Source of the DNA: an uncultured Alistipes sp.
GTDB taxonomy: Bacteria; Bacteroidota; Bacteroidia; Bacteroidales; Rikenellaceae
Direction of reading: 5' to 3'
DNA length: 64,000 nt
Assembly: GCA_947591475.1 (NCBI GenBank)
Contig: CANQDE010000002.1
Location: 352,783 to 416,782 of the forward strand
Position 1 is the stretch's first letter, and each line of letters begins with the position of its first letter. Below the pieces are notes generated by a model, which saw nothing but the letters and a program-made list of their open reading frames with translations, was not told the origin of the DNA and searched no databases. This document shows positions 197 to 7,569 of the stretch, piece by piece. The position numbers were made by a program, and so were the translations under genes.

Positions 197-1549
197 ATGG
201 AAAAGAATAGAGATATTAAGCGCCGCAGCACGTTCGCCATACTGTTCTATATCAACCGCACGAAAATCCGCAAGGACGGCATGTGCCAACTCTTGTGCAA
301 AATCAGTATCGATGCCGAAGCAGCACAAATCGGAACCAAAGTCGCGGTTGATCCCGCTATCTGGAATCCGACAACGGGCCGTGCCGACGGGCGAGGCCGC
401 AATGCCAACGAAGTGAACCGAGCGATTGACGCATTGACGAATGACATCAAGGCGCACTACAAACATATCAATCTGTCGTTAGGTTTCGTTACAGCCGAAC
501 TGGTGAAGAATGCTGTGAAAGGCATCGAGCAGAAGCCGCTGACGCTGTTAGCCATCTTCCGGGAACACAATGAAGAATTTAAGAAACGCATCGGCATCGA
601 CCGCACAAGAGAGACATACAAAAGCTATGTTCGTTCCTATAATCACCTGCGGGACTTCGTGCAGGAGAAATGCGGGCAAGAAGATATAACCTTACGAAGC
701 CTCGACCAAGAGTTCTACGATGCGTTCGATTTATTCTTGCGGACAGACCGGCACTTACAACAGAAGTCGGTGCACGAACATTTGTATCGGTTGAAGAAGA
801 TGACCGTGCGGGCGGTCAATCAAGGAACATTGCACCGCGATCCCTATTGCAATCTGCACCCGGAATTGCCCAAACGCAAGAGTCGTCATTTGAAACTCGA
901 CGACTTGAAACGTCTGCTTGCCGAGCAGGTCGCCGACCCGGTACTGCAACGGGTGCGGGATTGGTTTATCTTCTCCACCTTCACGGGATTGGCCTATGCA
1001 GACCTGAAACAGCTATCTACAAAGCACTTATCGCAGGATGACGAGGGTGTTTGGTGGATACATATCCGACGCCAAAAGACCGACACGGAATCAGTTATTA
1101 GATTGCTGGATATACCGATGCGGATTATCGAGAAATACAAAGCGGAGCGTACCGATGATCGACTGCTGCCGATTTGTCCTTACAAGAAATTACAACGACT
1201 GATTCCCCGATTAGGTGCAGCCTATGGAATCGGAAATATGACTTTTCATCAAGCAAGACATAATTTCGGAACGCATATCACCTTGTCGCTGGGTGTGCCG
1301 CTCGAAACCGTCAGTCGCATGATGGGACACAAACGACTTATAACCACTCAAATCTATGCTCACGTTACGGACAAGAAAGTAGATGAGGATACGAAGCAAT
1401 TACGGCAACTGTCCGCGAGCCGCAAACTCGAACTTTATGAAGAGCCGCAGAATATAAAAATGCAAGCACCCGATAAAGAGCACGATTATGACGACACGAC
1501 CCATAACTATCGAAAACGGGTGGGTAACGATCCGCTCCAATGCAACTGA
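197..1549 (+). CDS. Site-specific tyrosine recombinase (phage integrase, Bacteroidetes SAM-like N-terminal type)
   Basis: 450 aa; FTGLAYADL, HQARHNFGTHITLSLGVPLETVSRMMGHKRLITTQIYAHV (R..HxxR..H..Y) catalytic motifs. Confidence 0.92.
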   Translation: MEKNRDIKRRSTFAILFYINRTKIRKDGMCQLLCKISIDAEAAQIGTKVAVDPAIWNPTTGRADGRGRNANEVNRAIDALTNDIKAHYKHINLSLGFVTAELVKNAVKGIEQKPLTLLAIFREHNEEFKKRIGIDRTRETYKSYVRSYNHLRDFVQEKCGQEDITLRSLDQEFYDAFDLFLRTDRHLQQKSVHEHLYRLKKMTVRAVNQGTLHRDPYCNLHPELPKRKSRHLKLDDLKRLLAEQVADPVLQRVRDWFIFSTFTGLAYADLKQLSTKHLSQDDEGVWWIHIRRQKTDTESVIRLLDIPMRIIEKYKAERTDDRLLPICPYKKLQRLIPRLGAAYGIGNMTFHQARHNFGTHITLSLGVPLETVSRMMGHKRLITTQIYAHVTDKKVDEDTKQLRQLSASRKLELYEEPQNIKMQAPDKEHDYDDTTHNYRKRVGNDPLQCN

Positions 1550-1903: not shown

Positions 1904-2797
1904 TTGCATTTTAATAAGGAGGATATGATTAGAACAGATTATACGAAAATGGAACGATTGAGGAGTTATTCTTCAATCTTTTCTCGTAGGGTCTTTTCGG
2001 ATATTATAGAATATGATGATTACACTCGGTTAAATACGCTTTTCAACAGATACGATGCGAGTAAAGATCAATTTTGTTCTTATTTCGATTATATTAAATA
2101 TATATATCGAGTAATCGCCAAGGAATATAGATGCGAATATATTTATAAGAATGAGATAATCAATAAACTGCTTATCAAGGAATATGGAACAAAGAATACT
2201 GTTGCTATAAACGAGTTTCGGGTTCAAAATTCCATAGTCGATTTCGCATTATTCAATGGAGAAAGTAAGGCTTTTGAGATTAAAACGGAATATGATACAA
2301 AAAAACGATTAGAGCATCAAATCGACAATTATTCCAAACTTTTTCAGAAATGCTATATAGTTATTCCAGAAGAATCGTATCAACAATATAATGATAGCAT
2401 CTCTGAAAATGTGGGTATAATCGTTTTGATCCGAGAGAAAGGCCATATTAAATTGAACGAACGAAAAGCTGCGACCAAAAATCAAAATATTGACCCACAT
2501 GTCTTGATGCGAAGTATCAGAGCGGAGGAATATCGAAACATTGTAACTGAATATTTCGGTTATTTACCCAATGTATCTTGTTTTGAAATGTTCGACAGAT
2601 GCCAAGAAATGATCGAGAAAATTCCACAACAAGATTTGCACGGTTTGTTTTTGAAAGAGATAAAAAAACGCACTAATAATACACGACTATTAAGAACTTT
2701 TCCTTCGGAGATTCGCCAAATATGTTTGTCGTTGAATCTCGATCGGAAACAGTCGGACAGCCTGCTCAAAAAATTAGATCGCATAATAATGATGTAG
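1904..2797 (+). CDS. sce7726 family protein, PD-(D/E)XK nuclease-like
   Basis: 297 aa; NSIVDFALFNGESKAFEIKTEYDTKKRLEHQIDNYSKLFQKCYIVIP fits a D...ExK nuclease-fold motif and the sce7726 pattern. Confidence 0.75.
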   Translation: MHFNKEDMIRTDYTKMERLRSYSSIFSRRVFSDIIEYDDYTRLNTLFNRYDASKDQFCSYFDYIKYIYRVIAKEYRCEYIYKNEIINKLLIKEYGTKNTVAINEFRVQNSIVDFALFNGESKAFEIKTEYDTKKRLEHQIDNYSKLFQKCYIVIPEESYQQYNDSISENVGIIVLIREKGHIKLNERKAATKNQNIDPHVLMRSIRAEEYRNIVTEYFGYLPNVSCFEMFDRCQEMIEKIPQQDLHGLFLKEIKKRTNNTRLLRTFPSEIRQICLSLNLDRKQSDSLLKKLDRIIMM

Positions 2798-2800
2798 CCT

Positions 2801-3733
2801 ATGTATTTCCCTTACTTACGCGGCAAACAGTTTGAATTGATAGCATTACGGGAATTTGCAGAACAATATCCCGAAACCGCCAAAATCGTACCTATTATCG
2901 AACCGGTAAAGTCTACTTTCAATGGACTGAATACTGCCGCGAAAGTAATGTTTGAAAAACAGCTTAAATTTGCGTTAGTGTTGAATCCGATAGACGGCGA
3001 TTTTAAGCGCATTCATAAAGATATTTTACAGGAATTACCTATCCTTTCAGATAATCTCGGTCAATGGATTCCTGCATTTTTATTTCAAAATAATATTGAC
3101 GCGATCTTAGCAGCAATCCGAGAACGAGGATTGAACGACGTAATGATTATATTCAAAAACGGAATTGACACAGAGGAAAATACGTTGAATTTTTTGTCGA
3201 ATCCACAAATTCGATATATTGTTAATGGAGATCCCAATTCGCGGGCAGGAATGAGGCGATTGAGACACTTGGAAAATAAAGATATTATCCGATTAGATAA
3301 TTGTTTTATTGAACAACCTCGAAACGTCGATTATTTGAATATCCCGGAAGATAAGTTTACCGAAGAGCACCGATATTATTCCGAGGAAAAATTTTATGGA
3401 ATTTCGGACTATACTGCTTTACCAAAAAATTTTGTGGATGGTGGCATGTTACCGTATGCCGTTGCGATCCATATGACATACGAAAAAAATCGCGATGAAA
3501 TTTATGTGCGGCATTTTGTTTCGGATACAAATGACGATCAATCTAATATTCAAAGAAAATTTTTCGAGGCAACAACAAAGTTAAAGGATTTTTTTGCCAA
3601 TCGAGACAAGACAACGGCAATAGCTCAATTGATTCAATTATTGGATGATGGCAAATATCCCGGATTGGGTATCATTAAAAAACTATCGATCAAAAACCAC
3701 ATCGAGTTAATGAACCGTATTTTGCCCGAATAA
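2801..3733 (+). CDS. sce7725 family / beta-family-like protein
   Basis: 310 aa; begins MYFPYLRGKQFELIALREFAEQ...KIVPIIEPVKS, characteristic of sce7725/beta-family proteins; 3 nt after the previous ORF. Confidence 0.72.
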   Translation: MYFPYLRGKQFELIALREFAEQYPETAKIVPIIEPVKSTFNGLNTAAKVMFEKQLKFALVLNPIDGDFKRIHKDILQELPILSDNLGQWIPAFLFQNNIDAILAAIRERGLNDVMIIFKNGIDTEENTLNFLSNPQIRYIVNGDPNSRAGMRRLRHLENKDIIRLDNCFIEQPRNVDYLNIPEDKFTEEHRYYSEEKFYGISDYTALPKNFVDGGMLPYAVAIHMTYEKNRDEIYVRHFVSDTNDDQSNIQRKFFEATTKLKDFFANRDKTTAIAQLIQLLDDGKYPGLGIIKKLSIKNHIELMNRILPE

Positions 3734-3735
3734 TT

Positions 3736-4743
3736 ATGAATATTTGTGCCAACTGTTTTAATGATGAAGAAATAAAACAGTTTATAGTTGCATCTTCAAC
3801 TACTATTACCGAATGTGATTGCTGCGGGCAGGAATCGGAAGCAATCGAGTTAAGCGAACTTTCGGACTTCTTTGTTGAGTTTCTTAGGCTTTTTATAAAA
3901 GATGATAATGGGTACGATTTAATACAACTGATCAAGCAAGATTGGAATATATTTAGTTCGGATGCTTGTGCACAGACTATTTTATCGTCAATTATCGCAG
4001 ATGAAAATCTTGGTTTCACTATAGAGGATAAAGTTACCTACTCATCCGAAATTCAAGAATGTTTTTCTATATGGGAAAGGTTGAAATCCGAGGTGCGAGA
4101 AGAAAAAAGGTATTTTTCTGATTTAGGATCTTTCAATTGGGAGGGTTATATAAAGAGTAACGCTCGAATTAAAAAGGGAACAGCTTTATATAGAGCAAGA
4201 ATTACTCCGGAGGGACGTAAAAAACTGACGACAAAAGAAATGGGTTGTCCGCCGAAAGAGCGTGCGACGGCAGGACGGGCCAATCCGCTCGGTATCCCTT
4301 ATTTGTACTTATGCAACGAGATCGAAACGACTTATTATGAGGTTCGGGCAGTCTATCTCGATAGAATCAACATTGGCAGGTTTAGAATTCTTCGTGATTT
4401 GAATATTGTTGATTTTAGTAATAAAATTAACTTATTCTATGCGTATTCAGGAGCAGAATCGAATGAAGATTTGCAGGAAATCGTCAAACGGAAAATCCTA
4501 TTCGACAAAATAAGCACCGATCTATCTAAACCTTTACGCCGATTTGATACTGAAATAGAGTATGTGCCAACACAACTGATATGTGAATATTGCAAGCAGA
4601 ATGGCGCCGACGGAATTCGTTTCAATAGTTCTTTACATCAAGGAGGAACGAATGTCGTTCTGTTCAACAGTATCGATGCGAAATGTACGAGAGTGCTAAC
4701 GCATGAGATAAAAAATGTAAAAATAGAAAGCTGTCCGCTATGA
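3736..4743 (+). CDS. RES-domain protein with N-terminal CxxC..CxxC (HEPN/RES N-terminal-like) region; predicted NAD+ phosphorylase-type toxin/effector
   Basis: 335 aa; N-term CANC...CDCCG; ALYRAR...MGCPPKERATAGRANPLGIPYLYLCNEIETTYYEVRA matches the RES-domain R/E pattern; 2 nt after the previous stop. Confidence 0.78.
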   Translation: MNICANCFNDEEIKQFIVASSTTITECDCCGQESEAIELSELSDFFVEFLRLFIKDDNGYDLIQLIKQDWNIFSSDACAQTILSSIIADENLGFTIEDKVTYSSEIQECFSIWERLKSEVREEKRYFSDLGSFNWEGYIKSNARIKKGTALYRARITPEGRKKLTTKEMGCPPKERATAGRANPLGIPYLYLCNEIETTYYEVRAVYLDRINIGRFRILRDLNIVDFSNKINLFYAYSGAESNEDLQEIVKRKILFDKISTDLSKPLRRFDTEIEYVPTQLICEYCKQNGADGIRFNSSLHQGGTNVVLFNSIDAKCTRVLTHEIKNVKIESCPL

Positions 4744-5048: not shown

Positions 5049-5096
5049 TTTCAGTAATAGACCGTGAATTGCTTCCTATCTGTTCACGGTTCGATG

Positions 5097-5398
5097 TTTT
5101 TCTCTGTGCTTCTCTCCGATAACCTTCTCCTCGTTTCATTTTGTCTGTACGGGCCGGTAGTGGATGTATCTGTTATCGGCAGCGAAGGTATTCCCGGAAT
5201 CGACGCTCTTACAAGATCAAGCCGCACGGCGGTTTTGCGGAAAATCTTCCTTCGCCCGACATGCGAAGCGTATTTTCCGCAAAAATCTTGTTGCGAGCTG
5301 ATTCCGAACCTTCCAAGCTTCCGAAACAGATACATCCACTACCGGCTCCGCTACGGCATATAAAAAAAGTCGAAGGTTATGAGAAGCACAGAGAAAAA
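5097..5398. repeat. Long imperfect palindrome (foldback element, ~300 bp)
   Basis: Nested perfect inverted repeats: 5097-5114/5381-5398 (18 bp), 5119-5127/5372-5380 (9 bp), 5153-5174/5325-5346 (22 bp), 5233-5245/5272-5284 (13 bp), 5250-5255/5263-5268 (6 bp). Confidence 0.9.
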
Positions 5399-5546
5399 TA
5401 AACGGAAACAGAAATCCTCCACCCTTCCACTTGGCATAAGGTCGAGTCGGACGACGTGGTTGCTGCTCGGAGTAGTGGCATGCTCCGTTTTGTCTTATCG
5501 GCTTTGCTTTTCTGAATAGAAAATGCCATGTACGAATTTTTCTTTT

Positions 5547-5810: not shown

Positions 5811-6029
5811 CAAAGAAAGCCCTTATCCGGCCCGATTATACGCCCGATTTTCGCTATGGTCGTTTGTGGCGCCGAAGTGGCATCGAGTGGCGCAATCAAC
5901 TGTTGTTAAGTTTGTTGAATAGGTCGGTATCTTTGCTCCGTGAAACGATTCCGACGTAGATCGAAGCCGCTTTGCCCGTTTTTACGGCGACTTGTTCGAT
6001 CGCTCGTCCGACGGGCGGACGAAACGTTT

Positions 6030-6290
6030 TCGATAAGCCAAATGAGCAGAGCCGTGCTTGTACGGCTCTGCCATGGCGAGAAAGCGAAGGCTGAAAAGCC
6101 AATGTGTTTGCAAAGGGCAAACAGCAAGCTGTGTTTTCTGCTGCACAAAAAGTTTTTTGCATCGGAAAACAGCTTGCCCGCAAGGGGGTGCAAGCACCTC
6201 CGAAGTCGGCGCTTTTCGACAGGCGGCTCGGCCGCTGCGGAATCGAAAAATGAATGTACCGGCAGGCCGGTGGCCTCACATGAAATATTC
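6030..6290. other. Hairpin-rich segment upstream of mobC remnant; candidate oriT region
   Basis: Inverted repeats CAGAGCCGT-gcttgt-ACGGCTCTG, CAAGCTGTgTTTTC...GAAAACAGCTTG, GGTGCaaGCACC, ACCGGCaGGCCGGT in ~260 bp without a convincing ORF. Confidence 0.4.
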
Positions 6291-6295
6291 GAGAT

Positions 6296-6717
6296 ATGGA
6301 AAAGAATAAATTGCCTCGCAGGGGAAAAGGCGGTCGGCCGCCTAAAATCGACATCGCCAAATATCGGTATTCCGTCAATTTCTCAGCAGAGGACCACGCC
6401 CGATTTCTGACGATGTACGAACAATCGGGGTTGTTGTCGAAAGCGGCTTTTATCAAAGCACGGGTCTTCGGCGACGTGTTCCGGGTGATAAAAGCGACCG
6501 CGGAACGATGGAATATGTAGCTAAGCTGACGCAGTTCCACGCCCAATTCCGAGCCATAGGCACGAACTATAACCAGATCGTGAAGCTGTTGCACACCCAT
6601 TTCTCGGAGCGGAAAGCACTCGCTATGCTCTACAAATTGGAGAATGAAACGCGCGAATTGGCCGCGGTCGGGCAACGGATCATTGCGCTTTGCGAAGAGT
6701 TCAGAGAACGATGGTAA
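6296..6717 (+). pseudogene. MobC-like plasmid mobilization accessory protein, frameshifted
   Basis: N-part 6296-6520 (GGRPPKIDIAKYRYSVNFSAEDHARFLTMYEQSG...VFRVIK) and C-part 6508-6717 (EYVAKLTQFHAQFRAIGTNYNQIVKLL) fit one mobilization protein in two frames; break near A-run 6490-6493. Confidence 0.65.
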
Positions 6718-6726
6718 TCTTTTCAG

Positions 6727-7569
6727 TTATTTCTTGTTCTTCGGCCTCCATGTCCGCATCCGTTGCAGCAGAGCCTGTTTCGCCTTGTCGATCCACGGAG
6801 TGGGATTATTGCGCAATTTCATGTAGCAGAAAGTACGCGAAAGGTTCGTGTCGAGCTGGATGTTGAATACATTGGAGATATAAGCCGCCAGCTGCGTGAG
6901 CGGAACATTACCGAAACTCCGCTTGCTGTCGAGCATGTAAATCAATTCGGTCAAATCCGTTTTACTGTCCTGCCACGTCAGACGAACAGCAGGTAACGAA
7001 TCGTCGGAGGCATTCTTCACATATTCCAATGCCTCCAATTCACCTTTCAGATAGACCGACAGCATTTCGTTGGCCAACAGTTTCGCCACCTTGAAATCGG
7101 CATTGGTCGAGAATTTCGGGTCGCTCTCGTAGTGAAACGATTCAAGATACAGAGCCGTATCGACACGGCCGCGCAGATAGTAGAGCGAATCCAGATGGGT
7201 AAGTCCCGAACGATAGTAGTGAATGAAATCGGAGCGCTTATTGTTGTATCGGTTGATGGCGACCAACTCGTCGTTCAAATAAGCCCGTTGAGAATCGACG
7301 CCTACGGGGCGATTCATTTCGATGTTGTAAACTTTTCGATAATAGAGCAGACGATAAAACAAACGAGGCTTTATCTCCTTGAAGAATCGAATTTCTTCGG
7401 CTTCGTTCTTGAAGGTGTAGGTCGCGACGAAATCCCGCATTCGCTGAAAGGCATCGCCCAGAACGAGCGATGCCTCCAACGACTTTTTCAAAATATTCAA
7501 ATCGGAACCCTCTATCTTTCTCAACTTCCTCTCGACTTCCTTTTCGAGAGTACTAATAAATACATTCAT
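6727..7569 (-). CDS. rteC: RteC-domain protein (regulator of conjugative element transfer/excision)
   Basis: 280 aa; MNVFISTLEKEVERKLRKIE...FFKEIKPRLFYRLLYYRKVYNIE...LTWQDSKTDLTELIYML, RteC-family pattern. Confidence 0.85.
   Translation of the reverse strand: MNVFISTLEKEVERKLRKIEGSDLNILKKSLEASLVLGDAFQRMRDFVATYTFKNEAEEIRFFKEIKPRLFYRLLYYRKVYNIEMNRPVGVDSQRAYLNDELVAINRYNNKRSDFIHYYRSGLTHLDSLYYLRGRVDTALYLESFHYESDPKFSTNADFKVAKLLANEMLSVYLKGELEALEYVKNASDDSLPAVRLTWQDSKTDLTELIYMLDSKRSFGNVPLTQLAAYISNVFNIQLDTNLSRTFCYMKLRNNPTPWIDKAKQALLQRMRTWRPKNKK

Follow-up and report, generated by a model that had tools for sequence, protein, structure and literature searches.

So far, single-stranded-DNA promoters have been described mostly in plasmids of enterobacteria, F among them. 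Promoters on the incoming single strand determine the set of genes available to a conjugative element before the defences of the recipient act. A strand-specific hairpin in single-stranded DNA, with a promoter-like duplex and a conserved apical sequence, is also formed by the sso, which occurs in rolling-circle plasmids and in ICEs (ICEBs1, for example). Frpo1 and Frpo2 of F are required in vivo for early expression in transconjugants (PMC9849209), and Frpo has been described as a priming site as well, in the title of a work cited in PMC11541004. The literature that we searched, which covers few subscription journals, makes no mention of such an element in Bacteroidota, including the CTnDOT/CTn341-type ICEs.

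Here we analyze a long imperfect hairpin (positions 5097-5398, the minus strand being taken as the working folded form) in a 64,000-nt stretch of Alistipes DNA, hereafter the window. The hairpin represents a decayed version of an element that is conserved in CTnDOT-type ICEs of Bacteroidales. We favour, with moderate confidence, the reading that this element is a Frpo-like single-stranded-DNA promoter, with predicted activity, kept here in a dead copy; our confidence goes no higher because of the distance to oriT and because the TTG element is missing in some families.

The likeness to Frpo1 and Frpo2 of F, and to the ssi-type promoters of ColIb-P9, lies in a long imperfect hairpin, comparable in size, that immediately precedes an operon oriented toward oriT, in promoter elements placed inside the stem, and in a mismatch lean on the same strand. 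In plasmid F the order Frpo2 hairpin, ssb, oriT is the same as in these ICEs. In contrast to Frpo and ssi, the ICE hairpin carries the Bacteroidota promoter consensus and not -35/-10 elements, has a conserved apex motif and a start codon in the stem, and is separated from oriT by the tra operon and by 15-30 kb, a greater distance than that of Frpo in F, with other genes downstream. It has no sequence homology to Frpo: of 72,556 plasmid records, Frpo finds at least 5000, whereas blastn of the hairpin against the same records gave a copy from Phocaeicola massiliensis as its sole match. The likeness to sso rests on description (a hairpin in single-stranded DNA, a promoter-like duplex and a conserved apex), and the ICE hairpin differs from sso in being tied to one gene start.

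Structure of the hairpin

The foldback palindrome of ~300 bp reported in the preliminary description of this DNA is real. Perfect inverted repeats of 18 bp (5097-5114/5381-5398), 22 bp (5153-5174/5325-5346) and 13 bp (5233-5245/5272-5284) are present, shorter pairings also fall in order, and the hairpin contains ~130 Watson-Crick pairs. Folded as RNA, positions 5080-5420 reach -167.1 kcal/mol against -87.05 +/- 4.98 kcal/mol for 100 dinucleotide-preserving shuffles (z = -16), with 0/100 shuffles as stable as the real sequence, and the minus strand of the hairpin reaches -107.8 kcal/mol with DNA parameters. At the apex, the motif AAATCTTCCT...GCGTATTT (5242-5275) persists even between families whose hairpins align poorly elsewhere. 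A small inverted repeat, CCGTGAA...TTCACGG (5062-5089), flanks the base of the hairpin and is kept in most close relatives. The preliminary description had found no recognisable ORF here; this needs correction, as the 3' arm holds the ATG (5379) of a small membrane-protein gene, which in the window is a remnant of 46 codons (5379-5519, plus strand) and in relatives is intact at 83 aa. At L008/L022 an assembled contig begins, at position 1, within the hairpin, a hint that short-read assemblies break at the palindrome.

Relatives and host elements

The genome itself contains one full copy of the hairpin and one decayed remnant on contig 7 (L007 6390-6590, G000 contig 7), which has lost the apical stem and carries an early stop in the small-protein ORF. 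A similarity search found a hairpin match in only 1 of the 60 relatives sampled, and phage DNA searched in this way with the hairpin gave none. The Phocaeicola massiliensis copy, at 78% identity, gave the lead to the small protein, and scans with the latter found 19 loci among species genomes and another 6 among viral contigs, with near-identical copies in Bacteroides, Phocaeicola, Paraprevotella and Parabacteroides. Searching with the ~330-aa protein encoded downstream led to families at 43-47% protein identity in which a long hairpin again lies directly 5' of a small membrane-protein gene. The apex motif, used as a pattern with a variable spacer, matched 13 places in 7 of 394 Bacteroidales genomes, while the reversed control matched none; several of these places were new, and those examined had a long hairpin, most of them with the small-protein gene too. 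In an alignment of close relatives the 3' arm is the most conserved part of the hairpin. One locus (L054, G404 contig 6) has an insertion of ~100 nt at the apex, which folds by itself and leaves the stem intact. In a related ICE (L042, G249 contig 8) the long hairpin ends at its apex in a short, near-perfect hairpin that lacks the AAATCTTCCT motif.

The hosts of the hairpin are CTnDOT/CTn341-type ICEs, with which they have integrases, TraG, TraK, TraM, TraN, MobA, MobB and RteC all in common. Their gene order is integrases and HTH genes, hairpin, small protein, DUF protein, PcfK, PcfJ, tra operon, oriT, MobA and MobB. The operon directly 3' of the hairpin thus encodes the 83-aa membrane protein, the ~330-aa DUF protein, PcfK and PcfJ, and the tra operon (TraN, TraM, TraK, TraG) is on the opposite strand. 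Sequence searches of Pfam, NCBIfam, PHROGs and PDB left the ~330-aa protein without an assigned function, and its structural model (pLDDT 68) had no significant fold match. A MobA scan of the viral contigs returned one locus only. One of the records, OY725985.1 (L036, L037), is entered as a plasmid; it contains dnaA as well as polysaccharide genes and is therefore probably a chromosomal contig with an integrated ICE.

In the window, the tyrosine integrase of the ICE (197-1549, plus strand) is separated from the hairpin by a cargo operon that ends in a RES-domain gene (1904-4743), where relatives have HTH genes. An element from the same genus (G475:C10) has the identical gene order, with ~21 kb between hairpin and oriT. 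Homology to the hairpin side of this element ends at 5482, and homology to the oriT side of another locus (L114) begins at 5492, which places at 5483-5491 the junction of a deletion of ~21 kb that joined the two sides. Beyond it come the remnant of an oriT region (5903-6290), with an inverted repeat at 6124-6135/6166-6177, a frameshifted mobA remnant (6296-6717, plus strand) with mobB absent, and the gene for the RteC-family regulator of the ICE (6727-7569, minus strand; PF09357, E = 3e-66). The window holds a deletion remnant, a dead ICE copy without an intact operon. The hairpin had previously been placed between the RES operon and the mobilization region; this adjacency holds in the window but is secondary, a consequence of the deletion, as in other ICEs about 15-30 kb, including the tra operon, lie between the hairpin and the oriT/mobilization region.

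The strand that folds

A consensus fold of 13 close relatives has 68 pairs, of which 14 changed on both sides, likely an undercount because MAFFT misaligns the variable middle of the stem. As a strand test, the two arms of each copy were aligned in 10 clades and all mismatches were scored alike. Read on the plus strand, A·C oppositions outnumber G·U by 58 to 17 (composition null 0.552, binomial p = 6e-5), and the direction is unchanged under four other scorings. Five copies found later (L099, L103, L107, L110 and L105) gave 35 A·C against 17 G·U. Since the folding strand can accommodate G·U or G·T, and a plus-strand A·C reads as G·T on the minus strand, these counts indicate that it is minus-strand pairing that matters. 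The positive control comprised plasmid F together with short parts of two ordinary conjugative plasmids; for Frpo of F and related copies, which are not independent, the counts are 16 to 8 in the same direction. The bias could also originate in mutation of exposed single strands instead of selection. Counting A·C against G·U provides a simple way, from sequence only, to ask which strand of a palindrome folds.

A proposed promoter in the folded strand

On the minus strand, the 5' arm contains TACCTTTG, which matches the Bacteroidota -7 consensus TAnnTTTG and is exact in most families. The window copy of this -7 box reads TACCTTCG (5183-5190, minus strand), a one-base change, and a few other families are also one base off. 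A -33 TTG element (5212-5214, minus strand) lies 21 nt upstream of the box, with a spacing of 18-21 conserved in most families, and is absent at the right distance in L038, L050, L056 and L099. When minus-strand DNA is folded, almost all families show a bulge that borders the box on its upstream side. The promoter reading is favoured by a single strand that folds into a long stem and rebuilds promoter elements of the host type, TTG being absent in some families. In duplex DNA the box is directed leftward, away from the operon, and in the folded minus strand it is directed into the operon. The predicted 5' leader of an mRNA made from the folded strand (5318-5378, plus strand), opposite the predicted and approximate start, is among the most conserved stretches of the alignment.

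The operon points toward oriT and the relaxase genes point away in all elements where both are seen (the P. massiliensis record, G341:C14, G266:C22, G249:C8, G352:C27, G341:C12 and G475:C10), an arrangement shared with plasmids F and RP4. In RP4 the relaxase operon is in the trailing region, and its template is the transfer strand (PMC7314908). By likeness to RP4 and F, the transfer strand of these ICEs would be the minus strand and, provided that it is, the pairing is conserved on the transfer strand. Among the options first offered for the palindrome was a single-strand replication or transfer signal, and it is this one that gains support, from the mismatch bias on the minus strand, the minus-strand box and the geometry of operon and oriT.

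We propose that in conjugation a single strand of the ICE, by our assumption the minus strand, would enter the recipient with oriT leading. The incoming strand would fold on itself and its stem would rebuild a double-stranded Bacteroidota promoter (TTG, about 20 bp, TAnnTTTG), the bulge at the edge of the box marking where the bubble would open. RNA polymerase would then read out of the base of the stem, with the transferred strand as template, so that mRNA for the small membrane protein, the DUF protein, PcfK and PcfJ could be made before second-strand synthesis, perhaps while priming it. Once the second strand had been made, the same promoter would point away from the operon, resulting in shut-off in duplex DNA. 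An mRNA begun in the stem would lack the 5' arm and leave the start codon open, while one begun 5' of the hairpin would include the two arms, so that its start codon would be hidden, as a second lock. The promoter activity, the start site, the shut-off in the duplex, the hidden start codon and the identity of the transferred strand are all points that we infer.

More tentatively, and on balance with less confidence than doubt, we suggest that these hairpins form an independently evolved family of single-stranded-DNA promoters of Bacteroidales ICEs and that, together with the translational sealing of mRNA made from duplex DNA, they constitute a two-layer switch that would limit the operon to the minutes after DNA entry. 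If so, the conserved apex would be where a factor without a known counterpart in Frpo binds, and the presence of an unrelated family in ICEs of the dominant gut order would mean that the strategy arose more than once. The 83-aa membrane protein, the ~330-aa protein without known domain, PcfK and PcfJ would then be candidate early genes.

Alternative readings

The alternative that survives best is a single-strand origin of the sso or ssi type, in which the folded strand would recruit RNA polymerase or primase to prime the second strand, in transfer or in rolling-circle replication, with no role in mRNA production. A minus-strand fold with an internal promoter would suit priming equally well, the conserved apex is reminiscent of the conserved loops of sso elements, and the cited title that describes Frpo as a priming site points the same way. 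However, the hairpin always lies directly upstream of one operon, the ATG is inside the 3' arm and the 3' arm is the most conserved part, and a pure origin needs none of these. We consider this reading possible but rather improbable.

We think it unlikely that the hairpin acts as a plus-strand mRNA leader, in which the operon transcript would fold and hide its start codon until a signal opened it. The ATG is indeed in the 3' arm, pairs near it covary, and the plus-strand RNA fold is very stable. But the importance of minus-strand pairing argues against such a leader, as plus-strand mismatches favour A·C and not G·U, the opposite of what RNA tolerates, and the large structured RNA offered in the preliminary description is disfavoured on the same grounds. 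Moreover, none of the elements examined contains an exact plus-strand promoter match, and an Rfam search of the hairpin returned nothing real.

The box could instead be an ordinary leftward promoter in duplex DNA that serves HTH neighbours, the palindrome having some other DNA-binding purpose. One clade has two HTH genes leftward of the box, beginning about 270 nt from the predicted start, which could be served in this way. However, the box is kept in families with no leftward gene (L063, L101) and in others where unrelated cargo lies there, and such a promoter gives no explanation for some 100 or more compensated base pairs, which makes this reading quite improbable.

That the 22-bp repeats bound an invertible segment was suggested early on; that this would be a promoter segment, here in the off orientation, is hardly credible: inverted repeats do flank a segment with an outward promoter, like the invertible promoters of Bacteroidales (PMC8748976), but the repeats differ between families and are not conserved as repeats, pairing spans the whole element, and the inner segment has the same orientation in 24/24 distinct copies, with 0 inverted. 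A MITE or foldback transposon, to which a long palindrome without a complete gene of its own had pointed, was rejected as very improbable, the hairpin having one full copy and one remnant in the genome, a match in 1/60 relatives sampled and, in the relatives that carry it, always the same ICE position, with no multiple dispersed copies at unrelated sites.

The oriT region

The oriT regions of these ICEs contain, upstream of mobA, a box of the same type as that of the hairpin (TAACTTTG and variants). The oriT block GCAAGnTGTGTTTT, loop, AAAACnnCTTGCCC, followed by TCCGAAGTCG, is strongly conserved across diverse Bacteroidales ICEs (L036, L069-L083, L094-L098), where it also lies upstream of mobA, and the TAACTTTG-type box is upstream of this block. 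The minus-strand flank of the oriT repeat, CTTGCTATTTGCC, has what we take to be a slight likeness to the IncP nick region CTATCCTG^C, a lead only. Relative to other oriTs, the remnant in the window has an insertion, a repeat of ~60 bp (6023-6083) with an internal inverted repeat (GCAGAGCCGTGC...GTACGGCTCTGC), of which many copies are found in genomes of the genus.
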